The notes below the pieces were generated by a model. That model was not told the DNA's origin. It was given only the letters and a program-made list of their open reading frames with translations, and ran no database searches. Shown here in pieces: positions 15,580 to 48,501 of a DNA stretch of 49,715 bases. The position numbers were made by a program, and so were the translations under genes. Source of the stretch: a virus; IMG/VR virus record IMGVR_UViG_3300024520_003663, positions 1 through 49,715 of that record. One strand, 5' to 3'. The stretch's first letter is position 1; each line of letters starts with the position of its first letter.

Positions 15580-15906
15580 ATGAAACATATTAAAGCATTT
15601 GACGAATTTATAAGTGAGTCCTACTATTCATATTTAGGTGGGTCGACTCCGTATGATGATAAAGATATGAGAAAGACAGTAGTTGAGCCAAACCTTGGGA
15701 AACGGTACGATTCATATATCATGTTCAAGGACGATGATTACAATAAAATGAAAAGTAAGTTCGCTCCTAATACTGATGGTTGGAAAAAACTATATAGGTC
15801 AAGATCAAGTCAAGGTCAAGCTTTCATTTCACCCGACGGTAAAGTAATCAAAGCAGCTATTTTAGATGGTGGTGGGATTGTTGGTGCTATATACATTAAA
15901 AAGTAA
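15580..15906 (+). CDS. Capsid-targeted internal protein (CTS type), 108 aa
   Basis: Starts MKHIKAFDEFISESYYSY, a near-ideal copy of this genome's capsid-targeting-like motif; I-S-E-S at residues 11-14 is a candidate prohead-protease site. The remaining ~95 residues are Asp/Lys-rich with a compact beta-rich end ('GQAFISPDGKVIKAAILDGG', then 'YIKK'). Cleavage would leave a small basic/acidic protein inside the head. No family recognised. It is paired with another CTS gene three bases downstream. Confidence 0.65.
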   Translation: MKHIKAFDEFISESYYSYLGGSTPYDDKDMRKTVVEPNLGKRYDSYIMFKDDDYNKMKSKFAPNTDGWKKLYRSRSSQGQAFISPDGKVIKAAILDGGGIVGAIYIKK

Positions 15907-15909
15907 AAC

Positions 15910-16125
15910 ATGAAGGATATCAAATTATTTGAAGAATTCGTCGAAGAATCACAAGACGGATGGGGTTCTGATCCTAAAAAACCTAAGGCTATTGATAAAA
16001 TAGAGAACCGAATTTATAATGCAAAAGAAAGACTAGATAAGCTTGAATTGCAATGGGAAGCTGCGGTTGAAAAGCATCAAGGCAAATGGCAACCTAAATA
16101 CAACTTCGGAGATTTATTAGCATAA
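15910..16125 (+). CDS. Capsid-targeted internal peptide (CTS type), 71 aa
   Basis: Starts MKDIKLFEEFVEESQDGW; V-E-E-S at residues 11-14 is the presumed cleavage site. The mature part is a single charged helix ('IENRIYNAKERLDKLELQWEAAVEKH') and ends 'YNFGDLLA'. It resembles small T4 internal peptides or prohead-core pieces in size, but there is no sequence identity I can claim. It lies directly behind 15580-15906 and before a late-type promoter. Confidence 0.6.
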   Translation: MKDIKLFEEFVEESQDGWGSDPKKPKAIDKIENRIYNAKERLDKLELQWEAAVEKHQGKWQPKYNFGDLLA

Positions 16126-27368: not shown

Positions 27369-27656
27369 ATGAGAAACATAAAGTATAAATTTAAAGATTT
27401 TTTAGCAGAGGGACAAATATCTGAAGGCTCTTTATCTAATGAAGTAGATAAAGCAGTAGCCCACGTCGAAAAAATGAGAGGGAATGGGATAAACATAAGT
27501 GATTATGGTTTAGAAGATGTAGCTGATCATATTGACTCATATAGTAGTGGACGCGAGATAATCTATACGTCCAAAACAATTAAAGCATTTAAAGCATTGC
27601 TTAAAGCAATGTCTGATGACGAGATTGCAAATAATCAATGGAACGATAAAAACTAA
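27369..27656 (+). CDS. CTS-type internal protein, 95 aa
   Basis: Starts MRNIKYKFKDFLAEGQISEG. L-A-E-G and I-S-E-G both match the prohead-protease pattern, so the leader could be cut twice. The remainder is a charged helical domain ('NEVDKAVAHVEKMRGNG', 'IKAFKALLKAMSDDEIAN'). It begins two bases after the glycine-zipper protein and ends four bases before the next CTS gene. No known family recognised. Confidence 0.6.
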   Translation: MRNIKYKFKDFLAEGQISEGSLSNEVDKAVAHVEKMRGNGINISDYGLEDVADHIDSYSSGREIIYTSKTIKAFKALLKAMSDDEIANNQWNDKN

Positions 27657-31181: not shown

Positions 31182-31408
31182 AAATAACTGAAGAATTAGT
31201 GGCTGATGAACTTGAAGATTTCTACGACGACGTAAATAACAGTGACCGCAAACTAAGGTATCTTTTAAAATGGCCGTCTACTTTGGATATCTCTGCAGAT
31301 ACACCAAAGATGACGTTTAGTCCACCGAAGAAGAAATTTAAACCGAAGGTTAAACGACCAACAACACTATCAAAACATGGCAGACGAGGACGGAGCTCTA
31401 CTTTTTGA
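31178..31408 (+). CDS. Small hypothetical protein between primase and UvsY
   Basis: A 76-residue protein overlapping the primase stop by ATGA and overlapping the UvsY gene at its end. The N-terminal half is acidic and helical ('ITEELVADELEDFYDDV'); the C-terminal half is strongly basic and Pro/Lys-rich ('PPKKKFKPKVKRPTTLSKHG'). The split charge suggests a nucleic-acid or protein adaptor. The position could suit a helicase loader or late-transcription coactivator, but there is no motif to support either. Confidence 0.5.
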   Translation: MKITEELVADELEDFYDDVNNSDRKLRYLLKWPSTLDISADTPKMTFSPPKKKFKPKVKRPTTLSKHGRRGRSSTF

Positions 31409-31877
31409 GAGCACTAAAATAAAGAATAAGGAATACGACGAAGTGGACACTCGAGCTAAAAACGTCGTATTAGAAAAGAAGCTAATCCAGAATCGTAAAG
31501 ATTGGACTGAAAAGATTAAGCTGCTTGCTGTTAGACTCAAAGAAGTTCGTAATTTAACTGATGTTCAAATCGATATGCTTTCTTATAGACAAGTTGTTGT
31601 AGATTTGATGGTTGAACTTAAAGCTACAATTTATAAGCGTAGTGCATTCTGGGATTCTTATCATAAGACGAAATACAGAACCTACAGTTTAGATTACGAT
31701 ATGAAATTGACTAAGGAAGAAAAGATTTCATTTATAAGAGCAGATATGGCTTCTCTTAAATTCCAAATAAAACTGCTTGGCGCACATCTTGAATTTTATC
31801 AAGACTGTGTCAAGACATTAGACAACATGGCGTTTGCTATTAGAAATCGTATTACACTAAGTGAAAGTGATTACTGA
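31377..31877 (+). CDS. uvsY: Recombination mediator UvsY
   Basis: A 166-residue protein (T4 UvsY is 137). It has the T4-like order of motifs: an acidic start, 'STKIKNKEYDEVDTRAKN', a long charged helix, a central 'SAFWDSYHKTKYRTYSLDYD' corresponding to the Y-rich turn of T4 UvsY, and an ending 'LKFQIKLLGAHLEFYQDCVK' plus 'MAFAIRNRI'. UvsY loads the UvsX recombinase onto gp32-coated single strands; gp32 and the UvsW helicase are neighbours here, as uvsY-uvsW are in T4. The start at 31377 overlaps the preceding gene by 32 bases. Confidence 0.75.
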   Translation: MADEDGALLFESTKIKNKEYDEVDTRAKNVVLEKKLIQNRKDWTEKIKLLAVRLKEVRNLTDVQIDMLSYRQVVVDLMVELKATIYKRSAFWDSYHKTKYRTYSLDYDMKLTKEEKISFIRADMASLKFQIKLLGAHLEFYQDCVKTLDNMAFAIRNRITLSESDY

Positions 31878-31895
31878 TTGGTCTCTAGACACTTA

Positions 31896-31903
31896 GATAA
31901 ATA
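31896..31903 (+). promoter_or_regulatory. T4-late-type promoter box before uvsW
   Basis: GATAAATA, 26 bases before the uvsW ATG at 31930. In T4 uvsW is transcribed late, so a late-type box here is consistent with the family's biology. Confidence 0.5.
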
Positions 31904-31929
31904 GATTGGATAGAATACATAACACATAG

Positions 31930-33432
31930 ATGCAATTAACATTATCTGAGAATAATAAATTCTTGGTTATTTCTTCTTGTACAGAGTTAGAATACGAACA
32001 ACTCAAAGCAAGTTTAACTAAAAGAATTGACGGATGGCGATTTCATCCGCTGGTCCGGAAAAAAGTGTGGGATGGAAAAATCTCCTTCGTTAAGAAAAAC
32101 TTAATCCCAGCTGGCCTTTGGAAAGAGGTAGCAGATATATGTAAGGAGTATGATTTCCAACTTACGATGGTTGGAATTACCAGAATCTTTAACAGAGAAA
32201 TTAAACAAGACGAATTTGAAGCTTGGGCTCTTAAGTTCTTTGAGGGTAGAGAAATAACACCGAGAGATTATCAGATAGATGCTGCATTTAAAATACTAAA
32301 GTATAAAAGATGTTTAGCAGAATTAGCAACTTCAGCAGGTAAGACACTAATATCATTTATGGTGATTGGCTATCTTATGGAAGTTATGAATAAGCAGAAG
32401 ATCTTAATGATCGTACCAAACGTAAGTCTTGTGATTCAAGCAACGGGTGACTTCGAACAATATAACGCTGGTAAGTTAAGCATTAAAACTCAGCAAATTT
32501 ATTCTGGTTCAGAGATAAGAAAAAGTAGTAACATAGTAGTAGGTACTTATCAATCGCTTGTTAATTATGACGAAGAATACTTTAAGCAATTTGATGTAGT
32601 ACTTATTGATGAAACACATAAAGCTAAGGCTAAGTCTATTCAGACAGTAATGGATAAATGCTGGCACTGTGATTACCGCTTTGGTTTAAGTGGAACGATA
32701 CCTAAAAGAGGAACTGTTGACCGACTAACTTTAATGTCTGCAATGGGTCCATTAGTAACCCAAGTAAAAGCGAAACACCTTCAAGATGAAGGTCATATTG
32801 CAAACTGTAAAGTTTTACAGATTACAATGGACTATGCATCTGATGAACAAAAAGAAGCATTTGCATTCTTATCTAAAAATCCAAAACAGCGTAGGGAATT
32901 ATTTACACTTGAAAAGAATTTCATTAACCAAAATGAAAAGCGACTTAACTTTGTCACTAAAGTAATAAATAAGTCTCATTCAAATTCACTTGTTCTATTT
33001 CATAAAATAGATTACGGTGAAGCATTATACCGTAGCTTAAGAAACATTACTGATAAGAAAGTCTATTACGTAGACGGTAGCATCAGTGGTGATATGAGGG
33101 AAGAGTTTAAAGCTAGGATGGAGCAGAATGATGATGTAATAATTGTTGCAAGTTATGGAACATTCTCGACTGGTATTTCAATTAAGAATATTCATAACAT
33201 ATTTTTTACTGAAAGTTTCAAAAGTGAGGTAGTTATAAGACAGTCTATTGGCAGAGGGTTAAGAAAGCACCGTTCTAAAGACTTGGTAAAAATCTATGAT
33301 TTCATAGATGATTTTAGATATACTGATGAAGAAATGAATTGGAAGAACTATATGTACAAACATGGTGCTGAAAGAAGGAAGATATACGAAGAGGAACAAT
33401 TTAAGTACGATGTACAGACTGTAAAGTTTTAG
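31930..33432 (+). CDS. uvsW: UvsW-type superfamily 2 helicase
   Basis: A 500-residue protein (T4 UvsW is 503). Walker A is 'ATSAGKT' (133-139, K138), the Walker B/DExH box is D227-E-T-H230 in 'VVLIDETHKAK', motif III is 'GLSGTIPK', and motif VI is 'IRQSIGRGLRKH'. The N-terminal ~90 residues match the small DNA-binding domain that precedes the motor in UvsW ('SLTKRIDGWRFHPLVRKKVW'). It unwinds R-loops and branched recombination intermediates, shifting replication from origin-dependent to recombination-dependent initiation. Confidence 0.88.
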   Translation: MQLTLSENNKFLVISSCTELEYEQLKASLTKRIDGWRFHPLVRKKVWDGKISFVKKNLIPAGLWKEVADICKEYDFQLTMVGITRIFNREIKQDEFEAWALKFFEGREITPRDYQIDAAFKILKYKRCLAELATSAGKTLISFMVIGYLMEVMNKQKILMIVPNVSLVIQATGDFEQYNAGKLSIKTQQIYSGSEIRKSSNIVVGTYQSLVNYDEEYFKQFDVVLIDETHKAKAKSIQTVMDKCWHCDYRFGLSGTIPKRGTVDRLTLMSAMGPLVTQVKAKHLQDEGHIANCKVLQITMDYASDEQKEAFAFLSKNPKQRRELFTLEKNFINQNEKRLNFVTKVINKSHSNSLVLFHKIDYGEALYRSLRNITDKKVYYVDGSISGDMREEFKARMEQNDDVIIVASYGTFSTGISIKNIHNIFFTESFKSEVVIRQSIGRGLRKHRSKDLVKIYDFIDDFRYTDEEMNWKNYMYKHGAERRKIYEEEQFKYDVQTVKF

Positions 33433-34270: not shown

Positions 34271-34303
34271 TAAATACGCGACACAGAGTAAAAAAAATTG
34301 CAA

Positions 34304-35584
34304 ATGGGATATATTATGTTATTCGAACAATGGCTGGCTCAAGAAAGCCAGCCATTGTTGTTAGAGGGTGGTGCGTACGGTCATTTAAGTCATCCTTTTG
34401 AGGATCTAAACTTGACTATGAAGGACGTCCAAGACATGATCGATGCAACTGTAAGTGGTGCATTCGGTCCAGATAATTTTGTACAAGAAAAAGTTGATGG
34501 GCAGAACATCATGATTTCTTGGAAAGACGGTCGGTTAATCGCAGCCAGAAATAAGTCACATCTAAGAAATGCTGGTGAGAATGCACTTACCGCTCAGGGT
34601 ATGGCTGAACTATTCAAGGGTCGAGGAGATATTGAAATTGCATATAATACTGCAATGACAGATTTAGCAGCTTCTATCGGTGCATTGTCAGAGAAAGATA
34701 AATTAGACTTATTCGATAACGGCAGAAAATTTGCAAGCGTTGAAGTAATAACACCTGTGACTCAAAACACAATCCCGTACGGCCAGAACATTTTAGTATT
34801 TCATGGTTTAGTGGAATATGATGAAGCTGCTAATGTAATTGGAGAAGACAAAAGTGCTGCTAGGAAAATAGGTCAACTTATTAACGATGCTAATGCAGCT
34901 GCACAAGCAACTTATTATGTAAGAGGGCCAGTTGATATTTCTATTATGCCGTTTCCAAATACTAAGAAAAGAGCATCGTACTATAACTCTCAACTTAAAA
35001 CCATAATGAAAGAAAGTGGTACTAACCTTAATAGTACTATTAGAGATTATGTTATGGGTAGTGCTGTTAAAGTGCTTCAGGAAGAAGCTAAAAAAGCCAA
35101 AGTTAGTATACCAACTGATGCCGTTGAAGGTCTTGCTAGAAGAATCGGAGGAGTTGACAAATCATATACCATCCCAACAATTAAACACGAACTTGGTGCT
35201 GACGCTCAATGGTTCATTAATTTAGAGAAGAAAGACTATAAAAGATTAAAGCGTAAAATTTATGCACCTCTTGAAGGTATCTTTTTAGAGGTAGGAACTG
35301 AAATGATGAAAAACATATCAGCATTCTTATCAGCTAATCCTACTGCTGCTGCACAGGCAATGAAAAAAGAAGTTGAAGGTGTTATTAATAACATCAAGAC
35401 CAATGGAGATGCCGGAGATGTTGAAAAGCTTGAGGCCGAACTTCTAAGACTAACAGCTGCTGGTGGACTAGAAAGTATTGTTCCTACCGAAGGAATTACA
35501 TTTGTCTATAAAGGTAAGCCTTACAAATATACTGGGATTTTCGCGCCCCTCCACCAAATTCGTAGCATTTTAGCATATAAATAA
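34304..35584 (+). CDS. CTS-type ligase-like nucleotidyltransferase
   Basis: The start is placed at ATG 34304 (MGYIMLFEQWLAQESQPL), two codons after an in-frame TTG, because the motif then aligns with MAYIKLFEEF in the next gene; 426 residues. K63-V-D-G66 in 'FVQEKVDGQN' matches motif I (KxDG) of ATP/NAD ligases and capping enzymes, with the lysine that takes AMP. 'FASVEVITP...FHGLVEYD' resembles motif III. Near the end 'TEGITFVYKGKPYKYTGIFA' has the E-G and final-lysine pattern of motifs IV and V. It is therefore likely an RNA/DNA ligase-like enzyme carrying a head-targeting leader (L-A-Q-E-S and L-L-E-G sites). Substrate unknown. Confidence 0.6.
   Translation: MGYIMLFEQWLAQESQPLLLEGGAYGHLSHPFEDLNLTMKDVQDMIDATVSGAFGPDNFVQEKVDGQNIMISWKDGRLIAARNKSHLRNAGENALTAQGMAELFKGRGDIEIAYNTAMTDLAASIGALSEKDKLDLFDNGRKFASVEVITPVTQNTIPYGQNILVFHGLVEYDEAANVIGEDKSAARKIGQLINDANAAAQATYYVRGPVDISIMPFPNTKKRASYYNSQLKTIMKESGTNLNSTIRDYVMGSAVKVLQEEAKKAKVSIPTDAVEGLARRIGGVDKSYTIPTIKHELGADAQWFINLEKKDYKRLKRKIYAPLEGIFLEVGTEMMKNISAFLSANPTAAAQAMKKEVEGVINNIKTNGDAGDVEKLEAELLRLTAAGGLESIVPTEGITFVYKGKPYKYTGIFAPLHQIRSILAYK
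34326..34359 (+). other. Perfect 14-bp hairpin within the CTS codons of the ligase-like gene
   Basis: AACAATGGCTGGCT (34326-34339) and its exact reverse complement (34346-34359) flank a 6-base loop CAAGAA. This is the longest perfect stem I found in the window. It starts 22 bases after the ATG and has no T-run, so it is more likely translational control, mRNA processing or a 3' stabiliser of the upstream transcript than a terminator. Confidence 0.6.
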
Positions 35585-35589
35585 ACGAC

Positions 35590-36474
35590 ATGGCATATAT
35601 AAAATTATTTGAAGAATTCATATTATCAGAAAGTGGAAACTCTGTAGAAAATGCAGTACCGTTTCAGCAAGATCAAGTTGCTGGAACTTTAAAGTGGCTG
35701 GAGAAAAACGTTTTTCCTAAGATTGGAATATCTGGGATGGGTGACGATGCTGCAGTTATTGGAAGTGCCGGTAAGAAATTACCAGGAGACACAAGTGGCG
35801 ATATCGATATTGCAGTTTCAGCAGATAAGATTGCGGGTTATTTAGATGTTTCACTTCAGAATGTTTTAGGTGAACTTAATACGACATTAAAAAAATATGG
35901 CTACGAAACAAAAATGGCAGCAGGTTTTGGTCAAGTAAGTATAGCAGCTCCAATAGACGGTGACATTAATAACGGCGTTGGTCAAGTTGACCTAATGCTT
36001 TCAACTGATATGAAATGGTCTAAGTTTATTTACGAATCACCTGACTTTAGAACTGGAGAATCAAAATACAAAGGTGCATATCGTAATATTTTGTTAATGT
36101 CAATCATAGGACAATGCTTCGGAAAGACATTAAGTAAAACTCCAGAAGGAGCAACCAAAGAATATGAAGCCAGAGTAATTAGAATGAACCAAGGGATAGT
36201 GCAGATTAGAAAGACGTTCCAAGGTAAGAAAGGATTAATTAAGACTGCAAAGTTAATGAGAGACTTTGATAAAGAAATCACAAGAGAACCCCAAGAAGTG
36301 GTTGATATGATATTTAATAATTCAAAACCAAGCGATATTAATACATATGAAAAATTAAAGGCACTATTAGAATCTGGATTATTTAAATTTCCAGAGAAAG
36401 TAGATTCTATACTTGCAGAATTTAAAACGAGAATGACACATTCGGGTTTACCATTACCATCAGACATAGGATAA
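35590..36474 (+). CDS. CTS-type pol-beta-superfamily nucleotidyltransferase
   Basis: A 294-residue protein starting MAYIKLFEEFILSESGNS, an excellent capsid-targeting-like leader with L-S-E-S as cut site. The catalytic pattern of the pol-beta nucleotidyltransferase fold is clear: G58-S59 in 'AVIGSAGKK', D71-I-D73 in 'SGDIDIAV' and a third acid D134 in 'GVGQVDLML'. This superfamily includes CCA-adding enzymes, poly(A) polymerases, aminoglycoside and antitoxin-like transferases. The C-terminal half is helical. It follows the ligase-like gene by five bases, so the two enzymes probably act together. Confidence 0.65.
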   Translation: MAYIKLFEEFILSESGNSVENAVPFQQDQVAGTLKWLEKNVFPKIGISGMGDDAAVIGSAGKKLPGDTSGDIDIAVSADKIAGYLDVSLQNVLGELNTTLKKYGYETKMAAGFGQVSIAAPIDGDINNGVGQVDLMLSTDMKWSKFIYESPDFRTGESKYKGAYRNILLMSIIGQCFGKTLSKTPEGATKEYEARVIRMNQGIVQIRKTFQGKKGLIKTAKLMRDFDKEITREPQEVVDMIFNNSKPSDINTYEKLKALLESGLFKFPEKVDSILAEFKTRMTHSGLPLPSDIG

Positions 36475-36475
36475 T

Positions 36476-36661
36476 ATGACAGCAAAAGAACAGCAGAGAT
36501 ACGAAAGAGTATTTGAAAAATTAAAAGAATCTACAACCAAGGATGAATTCTTAGAATCAGTAGATTCTTTATTAGATGAAATTTTTGAAAGTAAGATTCA
36601 CCAACAACATAATCTTGATACATTATACGATGATGATTGGTGGACCAGTACTATGTCATAA
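36476..36661 (+). CDS. Small acidic hypothetical protein
   Basis: A 61-residue protein whose ATG begins one base after the preceding stop. It is helical and charged ('RYERVFEKLKESTTKDEFLE') with an aromatic/acidic end 'DTLYDDDWWTSTMS'. It lacks the capsid-targeting motif of its neighbours. It could be a small partner or inhibitor of the nucleotidyltransferase; no family recognised. Confidence 0.45.
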   Translation: MTAKEQQRYERVFEKLKESTTKDEFLESVDSLLDEIFESKIHQQHNLDTLYDDDWWTSTMS

Positions 36662-36704
36662 CTTTATACTATATTTGTTCAATAAATAAACAAAATCAAT
36701 TATA

Positions 36705-37271
36705 ATGGGGAAGTACGTAGATAGCTTTAAAATATTCGAAGCAAAATATCATACTTATGCAGATTACATGCAAGACGGTGATGAGTGGGGTACTCCCGAA
36801 GAACTAAAAAAAGATGCAACTATTTTAGTTAAGCATATGATTCCTAAAGATTGGGATAGCTCAGAAGATGCAATTAAAAACATTACTGACCAATCTAACG
36901 ATAAGAAAGGTATTAAGTTTGAGTTTACACTTGATTCTGGTGATACGATAACAGTATTTAAACTTGGAAGATTTAGAGGTAGTTGGGAAATTTACTTTAA
37001 CAAAAAGAAAGTTAAAGATAAAGCAGCAGTTAAGAAAATCTTAAGTGAAAGAATGACTGACTTAGATCAGTATTTGCATTCTATGAAAGGTTATGATTTT
37101 ACTCATCAGTATGCAGATGATGCAAGGTCACGAAGAAGTGGAGAGGCACATCAGAAAACATTAACTCAGTTATATAGCAAGCTTTCACCTTCAGATAAGA
37201 AGAAAGCATACGATAAGTATAAAGAAATATTTAAAATAGATACGAAATTTAACAACTTTAGTGGTACATAG
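36705..37271 (+). CDS. CTS-type protein, 188 aa, unknown function
   Basis: Starts MGKYVDSFKIFEAKYHTY, a degenerate capsid-targeting-like leader with I-F-E-A as possible cut site. The body has a small beta section ('GIKFEFTLDSGDTITVFKLG', 'SWEIYFNKKKV') and a basic helical end ('DARSRRSGEAHQKTLTQLY'), which would suit nucleic-acid binding. It sits in a tail-to-head pair with the 987-residue multi-enzyme gene three bases downstream. AATAAATA at 36681 may be its promoter. Confidence 0.5.
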   Translation: MGKYVDSFKIFEAKYHTYADYMQDGDEWGTPEELKKDATILVKHMIPKDWDSSEDAIKNITDQSNDKKGIKFEFTLDSGDTITVFKLGRFRGSWEIYFNKKKVKDKAAVKKILSERMTDLDQYLHSMKGYDFTHQYADDARSRRSGEAHQKTLTQLYSKLSPSDKKKAYDKYKEIFKIDTKFNNFSGT

Positions 37272-37274
37272 GAT

Positions 37275-40238
37275 ATGAAAGAACTTCATAGCATATATAG
37301 GGAAGCAGGGAAGGAATTTGTTAATGATTTACTTAATAACTATGTTGTAGTTACAGAGAAATTATCGGGTTCATCTTTTGCAGTTGAACACAATCCCACT
37401 GGACTACAATTCTTTAAAGGTACTTCTCAGAAGCCTATAAATTTAATAGATAGGACTATGATGGTTTATTATGAACCACCGATAGAACATATCAAAAACG
37501 TACTAGCATCAGGTAAAACAACAATCCCAGAGCATTGGAGATTTTGTTTTCAATATTTTGTTCATAACGAGCCAGGTGTTATAGCATACACTAAATTGCC
37601 AGAAAATAATTTAGTACTTACACATATTCATGTAAGAGGTGAAACTGGCAAAACTGCTAAAATTATAGATGACCCAAGAGTCATTAGAGATTGGGCAACT
37701 AAACTAAAAGTAACAGCATTACAACCATTCTACGCTGGTAATTTAACCGAAGAGCAGAAACTTAAGGTTGATGAATTTTTATCAATACCACTCGAAGACC
37801 AAGAAGAACTCTTTGGAACATCTTCATTCGTAGAATATATCCTAAAGGTTCTAAATCCAAAAGTAACAGCAACTACGTTACACGGAAATTTATCAAATCC
37901 AATCGATTCTTTAGTATTCAAGTTCATAAAAGCAGGTCATGGTAAATCATTTTCTGCTAGGATGATAGATCCGTATACGAGAACACTAATGAAAGATAAG
38001 GTGCCAGTTGATATAAGACGTGCACCGGCAGATATGAACGAAATCATTTTACTTGATCTTCTTGCTTTTATTGAAGAGCGAGGTATCAATAAAAGTGATA
38101 CAATGAAAGGTGATAGTGAGGAGCGCTATATTGAATTAATCTCCACATTGTTTAATGAATATGTAAGCCAGAAAGATGAAAGCCTTAGTGGTTTAACTTT
38201 CGATAAAGCAGATTTTGCATCTACACCTGAATTTGATTTGAATTTAGATCTTGTATCAAATGATAAGACTAAAGAACTATTATCAAAATCAGATCATCTT
38301 AAAGACCTATATAAAGTTATGTTAGGATCTTTAAGAAAGAAAAGAGACACAAAGAAAACAGGTGCTATATTAACACCATCTGTAATAGAAGACTTTAATA
38401 ACATGGTAGATAAAATTAACAAGATTAGCAATTCCAAAGATGATGGAGAATTCAAAACTTTTGAAGATTATCTTAAGCTTAAAAAAGTAAACGAAAATAT
38501 AGAAGAAGATCCCATAGAAAGTGTTACCGAAGAAAAGATATTAAGCTTCAATGACTTTAAGTCTCTTGATAAGATTAGTTTAAAGTCAGAAGTATCTGAA
38601 GCACTAACAGTTCCTCACAAAGAACGTGGTAAGAAAAAAGTAAATATGATAGTTGGAAGATTCCAACCTTTTACTTTGGGTCATGTTAAAGTGTTTGAGC
38701 AACTTCATAAACAAAATGGTTTTCCAATAGTTGTATTTACTGTAAGAGGTAAAAAGGTAAACTTAGAGAAATCTCCGTTTAATGAAGATGAACAAATGAC
38801 TATGTTCAATAAAATGAAGAAGCAATATTCATTTTTAGAAGCAATGTTCATAGTGCCTAGTGCAGCTATCGATACATTATTTTCAACTTTAAGACCAGCA
38901 TACGAACCAATCTTATGGGGATTTGGTACAGACAGAAAGAAGGCATACGAAGGTATGATTAATAAACCTGAGTACCGAAAGGATTTAGATGTGGAGCCAG
39001 ATTTCGCTGGATATGAAATTAAAAGAGGAGATGATGATGTATCAGCTTCTAAAGTTAGAACAGCTCTTGAATTAGATGACGAATCTACATTCAATAAAAT
39101 GACACCTAAGAGCATACACGATATGTACCAAATTCTTAGAACTGTTCTTGCACCAATCGAAGAATCATCTGATGTACTTGTCGAAAAAAAAGAAACAGAT
39201 CTAAGCGTTGAAGCTACTTCTCCTGGAGAGATGTACAGCAATCCATTCTTTATCGATGAAATCGTAAAAGCTAAAAAGCTTCCACAGTATAACAAATTTG
39301 TACAATTGTTACCGCATGGATTAGTAGCAGATGGATTTATTAAATTTGTAAATGGATTAGATCAAAGAGAAACTAAAGAGATAGTAGGCTATTTATATAG
39401 CTTAACTAAACCTACTCAATTAGATGCGAATGCATTATACGGAAATCCAAGTTCGCCATTAGGTCAGTTATTTGTATTAGAACCAAAGGGTGTTGGTAGA
39501 GGTGAAGTTGCAATCGCTTGGTTGATTAAAGATGCTGAAATTCAAGGTGGTGGAGAAAGCTACGATGTAAGCATCAAAGGTAAAAAGTTTGAAGTTAAAG
39601 CATATGAAGCCGGTGGTCCAAGTGATGCTATCCGAGCAGGTGTAAAAGCAAAGATTACAAACTTCAATTTCTATAATGAACTTTTAGATACGATTAGTAG
39701 AATTGATAAACTAACAGGCTTCTCAAGCGGTATTCCTAAATTCGATCTTAATGCTTATTTCCCAGAATCATTTGTGGCACTTGGTAATAAACTAATGGCT
39801 GAAAGAACAAGCATCTTATCTGGTGAAATTAGTAAAGGCAGACTGGCGACGATACAGAAATTCTATGATGAAGCAAATGCGATTGAAAGTCATATCAAGG
39901 GTTTCTCGAATGTGATATTAAGAGGACCGCACAGTAAGCCACGAGAATTAAGTGTAGTTCCAATTTCAGAAGAAGAGGTTGCAGCTGGAACATTCACGGT
40001 TAAGATAACTGAAAAAGATGAAAGTCTAACTTATATTCTATCTGAGCTAAGGAGATTGAAATACGTTAGAGATCCTAAGGCATTAGCAGTTGATTTACAA
40101 AATGCTGTAGATAAAAGTGTTAAGGGTACGGTTTATATCGTATTCAGAAGAAATAAAGTTAACATTGTTCCGGAGACAGGATTCAAATTCAGTCACATTA
40201 CAGCAGCAAGTGTAAAGTTCGTAGAACGGGACTTATAA
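37275..40238 (+). CDS. Three-module protein: ligase-like, NMN adenylyltransferase, PD-(D/E)xK-like nuclease
   Basis: A 987-residue protein. Module 1 (~1-415): K29-L-S-G32 in 'VTEKLSGSSF' fits ligase motif I (KxxG), and 'NPIDSLVFKFI' resembles motif IV. Module 2 (~450-630): 'GRFQPFTLGH' (461-470) and 'VSASKVR' (589-595) are the (H/T)xGH and ISxTxxR signatures of NadM/NadR-type NMN adenylyltransferases. Module 3 (~650-987): E744, D764 and E773-V-K775 in 'YDVSIKGKKFEVKA' match a PD-(D/E)xK nuclease core. The linkers look processable: 'KILSFNDFK' (421-429) with V-S-E-A (440-443) before module 2, and L-V-E (635-637) and V-E-A (645-647) before module 3. The N-terminus itself has no capsid-targeting leader. 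I infer a polyprotein possibly cut by the prohead protease. Confidence 0.65.
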   Translation: MKELHSIYREAGKEFVNDLLNNYVVVTEKLSGSSFAVEHNPTGLQFFKGTSQKPINLIDRTMMVYYEPPIEHIKNVLASGKTTIPEHWRFCFQYFVHNEPGVIAYTKLPENNLVLTHIHVRGETGKTAKIIDDPRVIRDWATKLKVTALQPFYAGNLTEEQKLKVDEFLSIPLEDQEELFGTSSFVEYILKVLNPKVTATTLHGNLSNPIDSLVFKFIKAGHGKSFSARMIDPYTRTLMKDKVPVDIRRAPADMNEIILLDLLAFIEERGINKSDTMKGDSEERYIELISTLFNEYVSQKDESLSGLTFDKADFASTPEFDLNLDLVSNDKTKELLSKSDHLKDLYKVMLGSLRKKRDTKKTGAILTPSVIEDFNNMVDKINKISNSKDDGEFKTFEDYLKLKKVNENIEEDPIESVTEEKILSFNDFKSLDKISLKSEVSEALTVPHKERGKKKVNMIVGRFQPFTLGHVKVFEQLHKQNGFPIVVFTVRGKKVNLEKSPFNEDEQMTMFNKMKKQYSFLEAMFIVPSAAIDTLFSTLRPAYEPILWGFGTDRKKAYEGMINKPEYRKDLDVEPDFAGYEIKRGDDDVSASKVRTALELDDESTFNKMTPKSIHDMYQILRTVLAPIEESSDVLVEKKETDLSVEATSPGEMYSNPFFIDEIVKAKKLPQYNKFVQLLPHGLVADGFIKFVNGLDQRETKEIVGYLYSLTKPTQLDANALYGNPSSPLGQLFVLEPKGVGRGEVAIAWLIKDAEIQGGGESYDVSIKGKKFEVKAYEAGGPSDAIRAGVKAKITNFNFYNELLDTISRIDKLTGFSSGIPKFDLNAYFPESFVALGNKLMAERTSILSGEISKGRLATIQKFYDEANAIESHIKGFSNVILRGPHSKPRELSVVPISEEEVAAGTFTVKITEKDESLTYILSELRRLKYVRDPKALAVDLQNAVDKSVKGTVYIVFRRNKVNIVPETGFKFSHITAASVKFVERDL

Positions 40239-40300: not shown

Positions 40301-40624
40301 ATGAAACACATAAAGTCATTAGACGATTTTCTTTTAGAAAAAAGGGTTGTCATCAAAAGAAAGTATACTGAGAATTATCCCGCTAAACATGCATCTACAT
40401 CAGCTCGTGTTAGAAACGCTGTATTAGATGCTATGGCAGATGGTGTAGTAACTGAGGAAGAGATTAAGAATATTCTACAAACCGCTAACGCTGGTAGCAG
40501 GTGGCTTAAGAAAAACGGAAGTCTTTTTAAGATTACTGAAGATGAAGCTGGTGTAAAGAGTTACACCTTATCTAAAAGTGGCAATCGTATCAGAACTCGT
40601 ACAAGAAATATAAACGAAGACTAA
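40301..40624 (+). CDS. CTS-type basic protein, 107 aa
   Basis: Starts MKHIKSLDDFLLEKRVVI; L-L-E-K is the candidate cleavage site. The mature part is strongly basic ('KRKYTENYPAKHASTSARVR', 'GNRIRTRTRNINED') with a helix-turn-like middle ('ADGVVTEEEIKNILQTA'), consistent with DNA binding inside the head. Its stop shares a base with the next ATG (TAATG). Confidence 0.6.
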   Translation: MKHIKSLDDFLLEKRVVIKRKYTENYPAKHASTSARVRNAVLDAMADGVVTEEEIKNILQTANAGSRWLKKNGSLFKITEDEAGVKSYTLSKSGNRIRTRTRNINED

Positions 40625-41025
40625 TGCCGGCAAAATCCAAAGCACAGCAAAGATTAATGGGAATGGCTTATTCTGTAAAGAAGGGCGATTCTGATATTGG
40701 AGATATTGATTCTTCATATAGAGATAAAGTGAAAGATCTTGTTGATGGAATGTCATTAGCTAAACTTAAAGATTACGCTAGTACTGATCATACGAACCTT
40801 CCTGATAAAGTTGAAGAAACTTCAGTGAATCTTAACCCGAATATGAACGTTCCGGGTATGGGTGATGTTGTACTTCCTGGAAATCCCGGAGATGCAAATT
40901 CTTTTGCTGGCCAAACACGTGGCAGTGGAGATATTCCTTTTGACTTAAAGAAGAAGAAAAAGAAGAAAAAGCTAAAGTATATTAAGACATACGAAAGTTT
41001 CATTCTAGAAAATAAGAAACGCTAA
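40624..41025 (+). CDS. 'MPAKSKAQQ' family protein with C-terminal CTS-like motif
   Basis: A 133-residue protein. 'MPAKSKAQQRLMGMAYSVKK' is the hallmark start of a small phage/bacterial family of unknown function (DUF3008-like, from memory). A Pro/Asn/Gly-rich middle follows, then a lysine run (KKKKKKKK, residues ~109-116) and a final 'KYIKTYESFILENKKR'. That end is a capsid-targeting-like motif, close to T4 MKTYQEFIAE, but at the C-terminus. No start codon precedes it in frame, so it is not a separate gene. I-L-E-N would release only the last few residues. Confidence 0.6.
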   Translation: MPAKSKAQQRLMGMAYSVKKGDSDIGDIDSSYRDKVKDLVDGMSLAKLKDYASTDHTNLPDKVEETSVNLNPNMNVPGMGDVVLPGNPGDANSFAGQTRGSGDIPFDLKKKKKKKKLKYIKTYESFILENKKR

Positions 41026-47844: not shown

Positions 47845-48501
47845 ATGAAGCACATTAAATTATACGAAGAATTTATAACTGAACGCTACGGCTTAAGAGG
47901 GCAGTCTTCAACATACAAAGATAACGCTAAAACTGAATATGGTAAATCTATAATCAAATTCGTAGATGCTTACTCTAATGGGACTGGTGATACTTCAGTT
48001 TCAAGTACAGTTAAAAGTTATATCTATGACATTATTGAAACTGAAGTAAATGATGAACTGAATGTTGTAGATTTAGACGAATGGGATGAAAAAGCATTCG
48101 ATGATTTTCTAATCAGACTTATTAATGCTGTTGAAGATGGTGAACATATTGTAGCATCTAAAGTTGAAGATTATCTTACAGACTTAAACGCACAAGACGT
48201 AGACGATAGAGTTTATGATTTGCAGATAGATCTTGAACAGGCTGAGCAAGAACGAGAGGATATGGATGCTGAGATGGATCTTGACGCTGGCTCAGTTATA
48301 GCTCAAGGTAAAGAATGGACTGACGCTGATGGTAATCGTTGGGGTGCTGAAATGAACAAAGCAGACGCAGAAATTGATAAGATAAAGGCAGAAATTGAAA
48401 AAGTAAAATCTCAAGGTTTAGATTCTAAAGTAATAAAGAACCTTAAGAAAGTTACAAAAAATGAAGTCAATTCTGTAATAAAATTAATCAACAGAATTTA
48501 A
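47845..48501 (+). CDS. CTS-type internal protein, 218 aa, acidic coiled coil
   Basis: Starts MKHIKLYEEFITERYGLR, one of the best capsid-targeting-like leaders here; I-T-E-R is the cut-site candidate. The body is acidic, with helical regions ('LINAVEDGEHIVASKVEDYL', 'LQIDLEQAEQEREDMDAEM') and a lysine-rich coiled end ('AEIDKIKAEIEKVKSQ'). It could be an internal head protein or a prohead-core component. Its transcript may end at the terminator-like hairpin embedded in the next gene. Confidence 0.6.
   Translation: MKHIKLYEEFITERYGLRGQSSTYKDNAKTEYGKSIIKFVDAYSNGTGDTSVSSTVKSYIYDIIETEVNDELNVVDLDEWDEKAFDDFLIRLINAVEDGEHIVASKVEDYLTDLNAQDVDDRVYDLQIDLEQAEQEREDMDAEMDLDAGSVIAQGKEWTDADGNRWGAEMNKADAEIDKIKAEIEKVKSQGLDSKVIKNLKKVTKNEVNSVIKLINRI

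Follow-up and report, generated by a model that had tools for sequence, protein, structure and literature searches.

A candidate head-packaged module for healing and sealing nucleic-acid ends in T4-like phages

Gene content of the locus

The window analysed here is the whole of a 49,715-nucleotide viral sequence, the 49.7-kb IMG/VR fragment IMGVR_UViG_3300024520_003663; genes and loci of relatives were read from other contigs and records. Its genes for baseplate, tail tube, SSB and UvsY are those of a T4-like phage. Our subject is a run of plus-strand genes in which a UvsW-type helicase gene is followed by genes for one acidic protein, a ligase-like protein (ligase 1), a pol-beta superfamily nucleotidyltransferase, a small protein and a 987-residue fusion of three domains (Table 1). 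The helicase was assigned from its own sequence and its position beside UvsY, and the start of ligase 1 at 34304 is an in-frame ATG two codons past a TTG at 34298. We propose, with a probability of roughly 0.55, that these genes constitute a head-packaged module of T4-like phages for the healing and sealing of nucleic-acid ends. Three enzyme open reading frames (ORFs) on one strand had been reported at this locus in an earlier note, and all are present where it placed them.

Table 1. Features of the module and its immediate surroundings in the window
Feature	Position	Strand	Remarks
UvsY-like gene and UvsW-type helicase gene	31377..33432	+	Context, directly upstream of the module
Ligase 1	34304..35584	+	Covalent nucleotidyltransferase (ligase superfamily)
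Capsid-targeting-like leader of ligase 1	34304..34366	+	MGYIMLFEQWLAQESQPLLLE, then GGAYGH; residues 1-21
Pol-beta superfamily nucleotidyltransferase	35590..36474	+	GSAGKK..SGDIDIAV..QVDLM
Capsid-targeting-like leader of the pol-beta protein	35590..35631	+	MAYIKLFEEFILSE
Small protein without assigned function	36705..37271	+	L009 homologue begins MKNIPTFESFVNEYQTY (leader)
Three-domain fusion, 987 residues	37275..40238	+	Rnl2-like, HIGH and putative nuclease tail
Rnl2-like RNA ligase domain	37275..38429	+	Fusion residues 1-385
HIGH-superfamily adenylyl/cytidylyltransferase domain	38634..39149	+	Fusion residues ~454-625; GRFQPFTLGH ... SASKVR
Putative PD-(D/E)xK nuclease core	39492..39644	+	Fusion residues ~740-790; GRGE...SYDVSI...FEVK
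Small protein with leader-like start	40301..40624	+	Starts MKHIKSLDDFLLEKR; L014 homologue fused ahead of a HIGH domain

Ligase 1 and the pol-beta protein

The predicted adenylation site of ligase 1 is intact. The motif I lysine, K63, is kept in 32 of 33 diverse homologues, while D65, G66, E147, E396, G397, K408, T410 and G411, the remaining key positions of motifs I (KxDG), III, IV and V, are present in all 33. The AF2 model (pLDDT 87.7, pTM 0.83) exceeds a pLDDT of 90 in the core, falls below 50 over residues 1-26, a disordered leader, and shows a helical insert of about 200 residues between motifs III and IV. When this model was compared with the PDB using Foldseek, the top ranks were all ligases, RNA ligases first, with capping enzymes also among the neighbours and the ligase of African swine fever virus (ASFV) matched at a probability of 0.97. 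Between them, ligase 1 and the Rnl2-like domain have T4 Rnl2, tRNA ligase, Rnl1 and archaeal Rnl as their nearest folds. The best matches of ligase 1 in BFVD were phage proteins with a cytidyltransferase domain; behind them ranked RNA ligases, at 3.5e-4 and weaker, together with an S-PM2 cytidyltransferase protein and a PA5oct protein of 446 residues, the same length as gp256. No family match was obtained for ligase 1 in Pfam, PHROGs or NCBIfam, an alignment profile search of the PDB gave chance matches only, and two peptide patterns found no bacterial or archaeal source in 84,980 species.

The pol-beta protein has a predicted metal site that is an intact Asp triad (GS, DxD and a third Asp): D71, D73 and D134, together with G58 and Q132, are invariant in 35 of 35 homologues sharing 27-63% identity. 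Pfam, PHROGs and NCBIfam assign no family to the window protein, and its alignment profile matched the PDB at chance level only. Some alignment members match DNA_pol_B_palm, thumb and Polbeta weakly in Pfam, four of them matching the DNA polymerase beta palm (best E 0.035) and two the thumb (best 0.18). In G011, a gene for RlaP, another nucleotidyltransferase considered below, occupies a locus separate from that of the pol-beta protein.

These results bear on whether the genes form a DNA repair kit, in which a Pol-X-like gap filler and a ligase, perhaps with the nuclease, repair the incoming genome where it is nicked or gapped. African swine fever virus carries virion repair enzymes of this sort (Pol X, ligase and AP endonuclease), and the ASFV ligase match, the palm signature GS..SGDxD and the palm and thumb as the Pfam families that most pol-beta members match are all consistent with the idea, as are the primase and helicase genes near the modules of relatives and the helicase gene in the window. 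Nevertheless, in structure both ligases come closest to RNA ligases, and the Pfam matches of the pol-beta protein stand at E 0.035 or worse, and we regard this explanation as rather unlikely.

The fusion protein

Residues 1-385 of the fusion fold like T4 RNA ligase 2 (Foldseek E=4.6e-7) and fungal tRNA ligase. The motif I lysine, K28 in the window, is kept in 19 IMG/VR homologues and replaced by Asn or Asp in four more distant ones (LR756500, LR745206, LR756501 and LR756504). In the window copy, Glu has become Gln in motif III, EG has become DS in motif IV and Lys has become Arg in motif V, all three motifs being kept in L062, L065 and L068. We rejected the view that both ligases are active as far as the window's fusion copy is concerned, given these alterations.

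The HIGH domain matches Pfam PF01467 (CTP_transf_like) at 1.1e-6, above cutoff, and in Foldseek a NadM structure at 1.1e-4 and also phosphopantetheine adenylyltransferase (PPAT). In profile comparison PPAT scored 2.3e-8 against 1.7e-9 for MJ0541, so that the domain resembles nicotinamide mononucleotide (NMN) enzymes and phosphopantetheine enzymes to much the same degree. The cutoffs of curated NMN adenylyltransferase (NMNAT) models were missed, at 28.4 versus 127 bits and 24.9 versus 181.2 bits. It is consequently hard to favour the suggestion of the earlier note that the HIGH enzyme turns NMN into nicotinamide adenine dinucleotide (NAD+) to counter NAD+-depleting defences. The signatures GRFQPF(H/T)xGH and SGTxVR are as in NadM, NMNAT structures are among the best HIGH matches and phage NAD+ synthesis is known (PMC9503650). 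PPAT, however, scores about equally, the NMNAT cutoff is far off (28 versus 127 bits) and NadV-type PF04095, present in 4 of 16 related records, is absent from the other 12, the complete Mel-JY01 among them, whereas in the published survey every NadM phage carried NadV (PMC9503650); moreover, an NAD+ role leaves unexplained why the HIGH domain is so constantly linked to ligase and pol-beta. We consider NAD+ restoration improbable.

In four relatives (L040:11371-11868, L042:12361-12852, L043:13447-13938 and L047:4200-4679) the HIGH domain fused to the Rnl2-like protein lacks both signatures. Those of L040, L042 and L043 adjoin intact stand-alone HIGH genes, and the signature-less domain is possibly a pseudo-enzyme partner.

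The C-terminal third of the fusion is poorly modelled. Its putative nuclease core (pLDDT about 55-66) shows an E..D..ExK motif and the strand pattern, which suggests a PD-(D/E)xK nuclease.

Taken with the earlier note, these results confirm its KxDG ligase-like protein, whose catalytic motifs are intact and whose fold is that of a ligase, and its pol-beta nucleotidyltransferase, with the invariant Asp triad. Structure searches place ligase 1 and the Rnl2-like and HIGH domains in the superfamilies it named. Its KxxG ligase/NadM-like/PD-(D/E)xK fusion stands as regards the ligase and HIGH folds; NMN specificity is doubtful, and the nuclease is recognised at the level of motifs. Of the outcomes that it named as refuting, unconserved catalytic residues are in part observed: such residues are conserved in ligase 1 and pol-beta, while the second ligase has lost most of its motifs in the window and its lysine in four homologues.

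Recurrence of the set in other phages

Searches with the ligase 1 and pol-beta alignments yielded 160 loci. Ligase 1, HIGH, pol-beta and Rnl2-like proteins are encoded together in 23 contigs, with the four genes contiguous in L039 and L045. Of 100 contigs with ligase 1, 79 also encode a HIGH domain, in 40 cases within the same ORF; for contigs with pol-beta the figure is 60 of 85. Since the contigs do not represent independent events, the stronger argument for linkage comes from the different fusions, namely HIGH-ligase 1, ligase 1-HIGH, Rnl2-like-HIGH and pol-beta-DUF6267 ligase. A gene for the DUF6267 ligase occurs in 469 phage records, most of them from T4-like cyanophages; a cytidyltransferase is annotated beside it in many of the records listed, and phrog_455 covers both. 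Ligase-like genes, recognised by motif, adjoin or lie near pol-beta in Stenotrophomonas phage Bhz51, Sinorhizobium phage Phosso, Agrobacterium phage Atu_ph07 and Pseudomonas phage PA5oct, and related modules are found near primase or helicase genes in P-RSM1, Bhz51, Phosso and PA5oct. The combination, unfamiliar to the author of the earlier note, is in fact recurrent across many phages in the neighbourhood search, and we rejected the notion that it is unique in view of the 23 contigs and four kinds of fusion.

A 915-residue protein of L021 (8474-11221) combines ParB-like, HIGH and ligase 1 domains. Some 3.3 kb separate it from a terminase-like gene downstream, and the position is similar in L012, L013 and Mel-JY01 (L017). 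Relative to L003, the UvsW-type helicase gene of L002 (4870-6119) is broken by about 1.25 kb, possibly an intron or homing gene; a further stretch of about 0.85 kb between ligase 1 and pol-beta in L002 may be of the same nature.

Leaders, prohead protease and virion evidence

Ligase 1 and the pol-beta protein begin with the short leaders listed in Table 1, that of ligase 1 having a conserved (L/I)xE ahead of GG. A pattern for such leaders, [FY]xx[FYW][LIVMF]x(1-2)E within the first 26 residues, which was drawn up after the sequences had been inspected, is present in 6 of 47 window genes, where shuffles give 0.42; L009 has it in 13 of its 27 genes, against 0.23 in shuffles. A slightly wider pattern, likewise chosen with the sequences in view and applied family by family to distinct N-termini or homologues and compared with shuffled sequences, was found in 23 of 35 distinct N-termini of ligase 1 (7.4 shuffled), 24 of 50 distinct pol-beta homologues (3.3) and 26 of 34 stand-alone HIGH proteins (3.2). 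The Rnl2-like family served as a negative comparison, with 2 of 18 (2.2).

A T4-type prohead protease (PF03420) scores over cutoff in 15 of 16 related records. The leader-bearing gp154 of S-CREM2, which begins MKNFSSFLTEADEK, is a HIGH homologue (1.1e-20) and a virion protein by mass spectrometry (PMC10665884); its gene is placed like the window module, three genes after UvsW. A pol-beta homologue, gp253 of PA5oct, is marked in its record as detected by ESI-MS/MS. There is precedent in the internal proteins of T-even phages, diverse defence proteins that have only a capsid-targeting sequence in common (PMC3012670). The leaders that the earlier note saw on ligase and pol-beta are present on both and exceed shuffled counts, and the head packaging that it deduced gains support from them, from the protease in 15 of 16 records and from mass spectrometry (MS) of homologues in two isolated phages.

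Conceivably the leaders have some other use and the enzymes work within the infected cell at a late stage, for some module members carry no leader and the MS evidence concerns homologues in other phages. The detection of those homologues, the S77 prohead protease and the resemblance of the leader to the T4 capsid-targeting sequence all tell against this, and we think it a poor prospect.

Four more window genes outside the cassette bear leaders (15580-15906, 15910-16125, 27369-27656 and 47845-48501), and in the DUF3008 protein at 40624-41025 a leader-like sequence, KYIKTYESFILENKKR, occurs at the C-terminus instead of the N-terminus. At L008:10103-15634, L009:9326-17073, L010:9236-14341 and L112, small genes that are for the most part unrelated stand in long arrays; most share a leader that begins MKYVKTFESF.. 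or MKNIPTFEDFVNE.., and the arrays appear to be complete sets of tagged head proteins. By eye, one leader protein (L008:12183-12713), with VYHYT just past its leader, resembles ADP-ribosyltransferases such as T4 Alt and ModA, and another (L007:13142-13519), ending DGSHRMLALQEIG..., resembles ParB/sulfiredoxin-like nucleases. Two genes after the HIGH gene of S-CREM2 comes gp156 (L190:21013-21726), by eye a different nucleotidyltransferase-like protein, GGNANYNYTPYSDIDLHLVV. In the records of L007-L073 the frame that holds the prohead protease domain is often about 640 residues long, compared with about 220 in Mel-JY01 and G011, and the domain may there be fused to another head protein.

Proposed function

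Guided by their leaders, the ligase and the pol-beta protein (in relatives, the HIGH enzyme as well) would be placed in the core of the prohead, where the S77 protease would trim them after (L/I)xE. The enzymes would enter the cell together with the phage DNA and, ahead of phage gene expression, pol-beta would refill lost nucleotides and the ligase seal the ends. The likeliest substrate would be RNA cut by host defence nucleases, with nicked or gapped incoming DNA as the main alternative; as the ligase folds are nearest to those of RNA ligases, service to RNA seems more likely than to DNA. The part of the HIGH enzyme is probably to form or recycle an adenylylated or cytidylylated intermediate of the same reaction. 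It is the partnership of ligase and pol-beta that leads us to end repair, a role already suggested in the earlier note: the recurrent ligase, pol-beta and HIGH domain fusions support it.

A role outside repair was also weighed, in which the enzymes, like T4 Alt, would serve to seize the cell by adenylylating, capping or tailing RNA or proteins of the host. Ligase 1 has an adenylation core with no recognisable OB domain at its C-terminus and resembles capping enzymes also, and the same arrays hold ART-like and other leader proteins. Yet the recurrent partnership of ligase with pol-beta points to end repair, and several ligase types fill the slot; such a takeover strikes us as improbable.

Several observations weigh against a head-packaged end-repair module. 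As regards the enzymes, motifs III, IV and V being altered, the Rnl2-like domain of the window copy is probably impaired. No end-binding domain can be recognised at the C-terminus of ligase 1, whose E-values in the Foldseek search of the PDB are weak (2.5e-3), plausibly because of the long helical insert. The Pfam lean of pol-beta to DNA polymerase beta palm and thumb weakly favours DNA, and its identification as RlaP was rejected, no alignment member matching PF10127 at E<=1. As regards packaging, the fusion, and with it the Rnl2-like domain, has no leader at its N-terminus, several related modules adjoin replication genes and not head genes, and the authors of the S-CREM2 study caution that detected enzymes may be co-purified (PMC10665884).

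More tentatively, and at somewhat short of even odds, the module might exemplify a widespread, unnamed phage system: an end-repair kit made in advance, which a modular address tag would send into the head and which would reach the cell along with the genome. The kit would comprise a ligase, a gap filler of the pol-beta type, a HIGH nucleotidyltransferase and, probably, a nuclease. Several interchangeable ligase lineages would fill the sealing slot, including those of hundreds of T4-like cyanophages. If so, phages mend damage at entry with enzymes from the previous host, thereby blunting fast nuclease defences; the DUF6267 and 'cytidyltransferase' genes of hundreds of T4-like cyanophages acquire a function; and the leader allows the injected protein set of a phage to be read from sequence alone. 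The literature searched contains no description of the ligase, pol-beta and HIGH set as one packaged system, though an earlier account of the ligase-HIGH link may exist, and no paper naming DUF6267.

Comparison with known systems

Each ingredient of the proposal has a precedent, in T4 internal proteins, RNA ligase with RlaP, phage NAD+ genes and virion cytidyltransferases. Phage NAD+ salvage (NadV with NadM or NadR) shares the HIGH transferase domain; most records here, however, have no NadV, the linkage is to ligases instead, and no Nudix or kinase fusion was seen in the window's HIGH protein. The virion repair enzymes of ASFV embody the same idea of a packaged gap filler and ligase, but in a eukaryotic virus, whereas the ligase here is closer to RNA ligases and no AP endonuclease was seen.

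The known partnership of RNA ligase and RlaP (PMC7824862) likewise couples a ligase with a pol-beta transferase. It differs in that the pol-beta protein here is not RlaP by Pfam, ligase 1 is unmatched by Pfam ligase models, and a HIGH enzyme and head leaders are added. In the DUF6267-cytidyltransferase pair of T4-like cyanophages (phrog_455, T4-GC 71/190) a ligase-type protein is again fused or adjacent to a HIGH transferase, and cytidylyltransferases are found in virions. There the ligase is of another subfamily and annotated as hypothetical, and in neither P-RSM1 nor Syn19 could a pol-beta gene be recognised next to the pair.

The T4 internal head proteins (IPI-III and Alt) are alike in having a short, aromatic-rich N-terminal leader ending xxE on otherwise unrelated passengers, and in the S77 prohead protease, here found in related genomes. 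The passengers differ, being here ligase, polymerase-like and HIGH enzymes, and, compared with T4, the relatives described here have about ten or more tagged genes set out in arrays.
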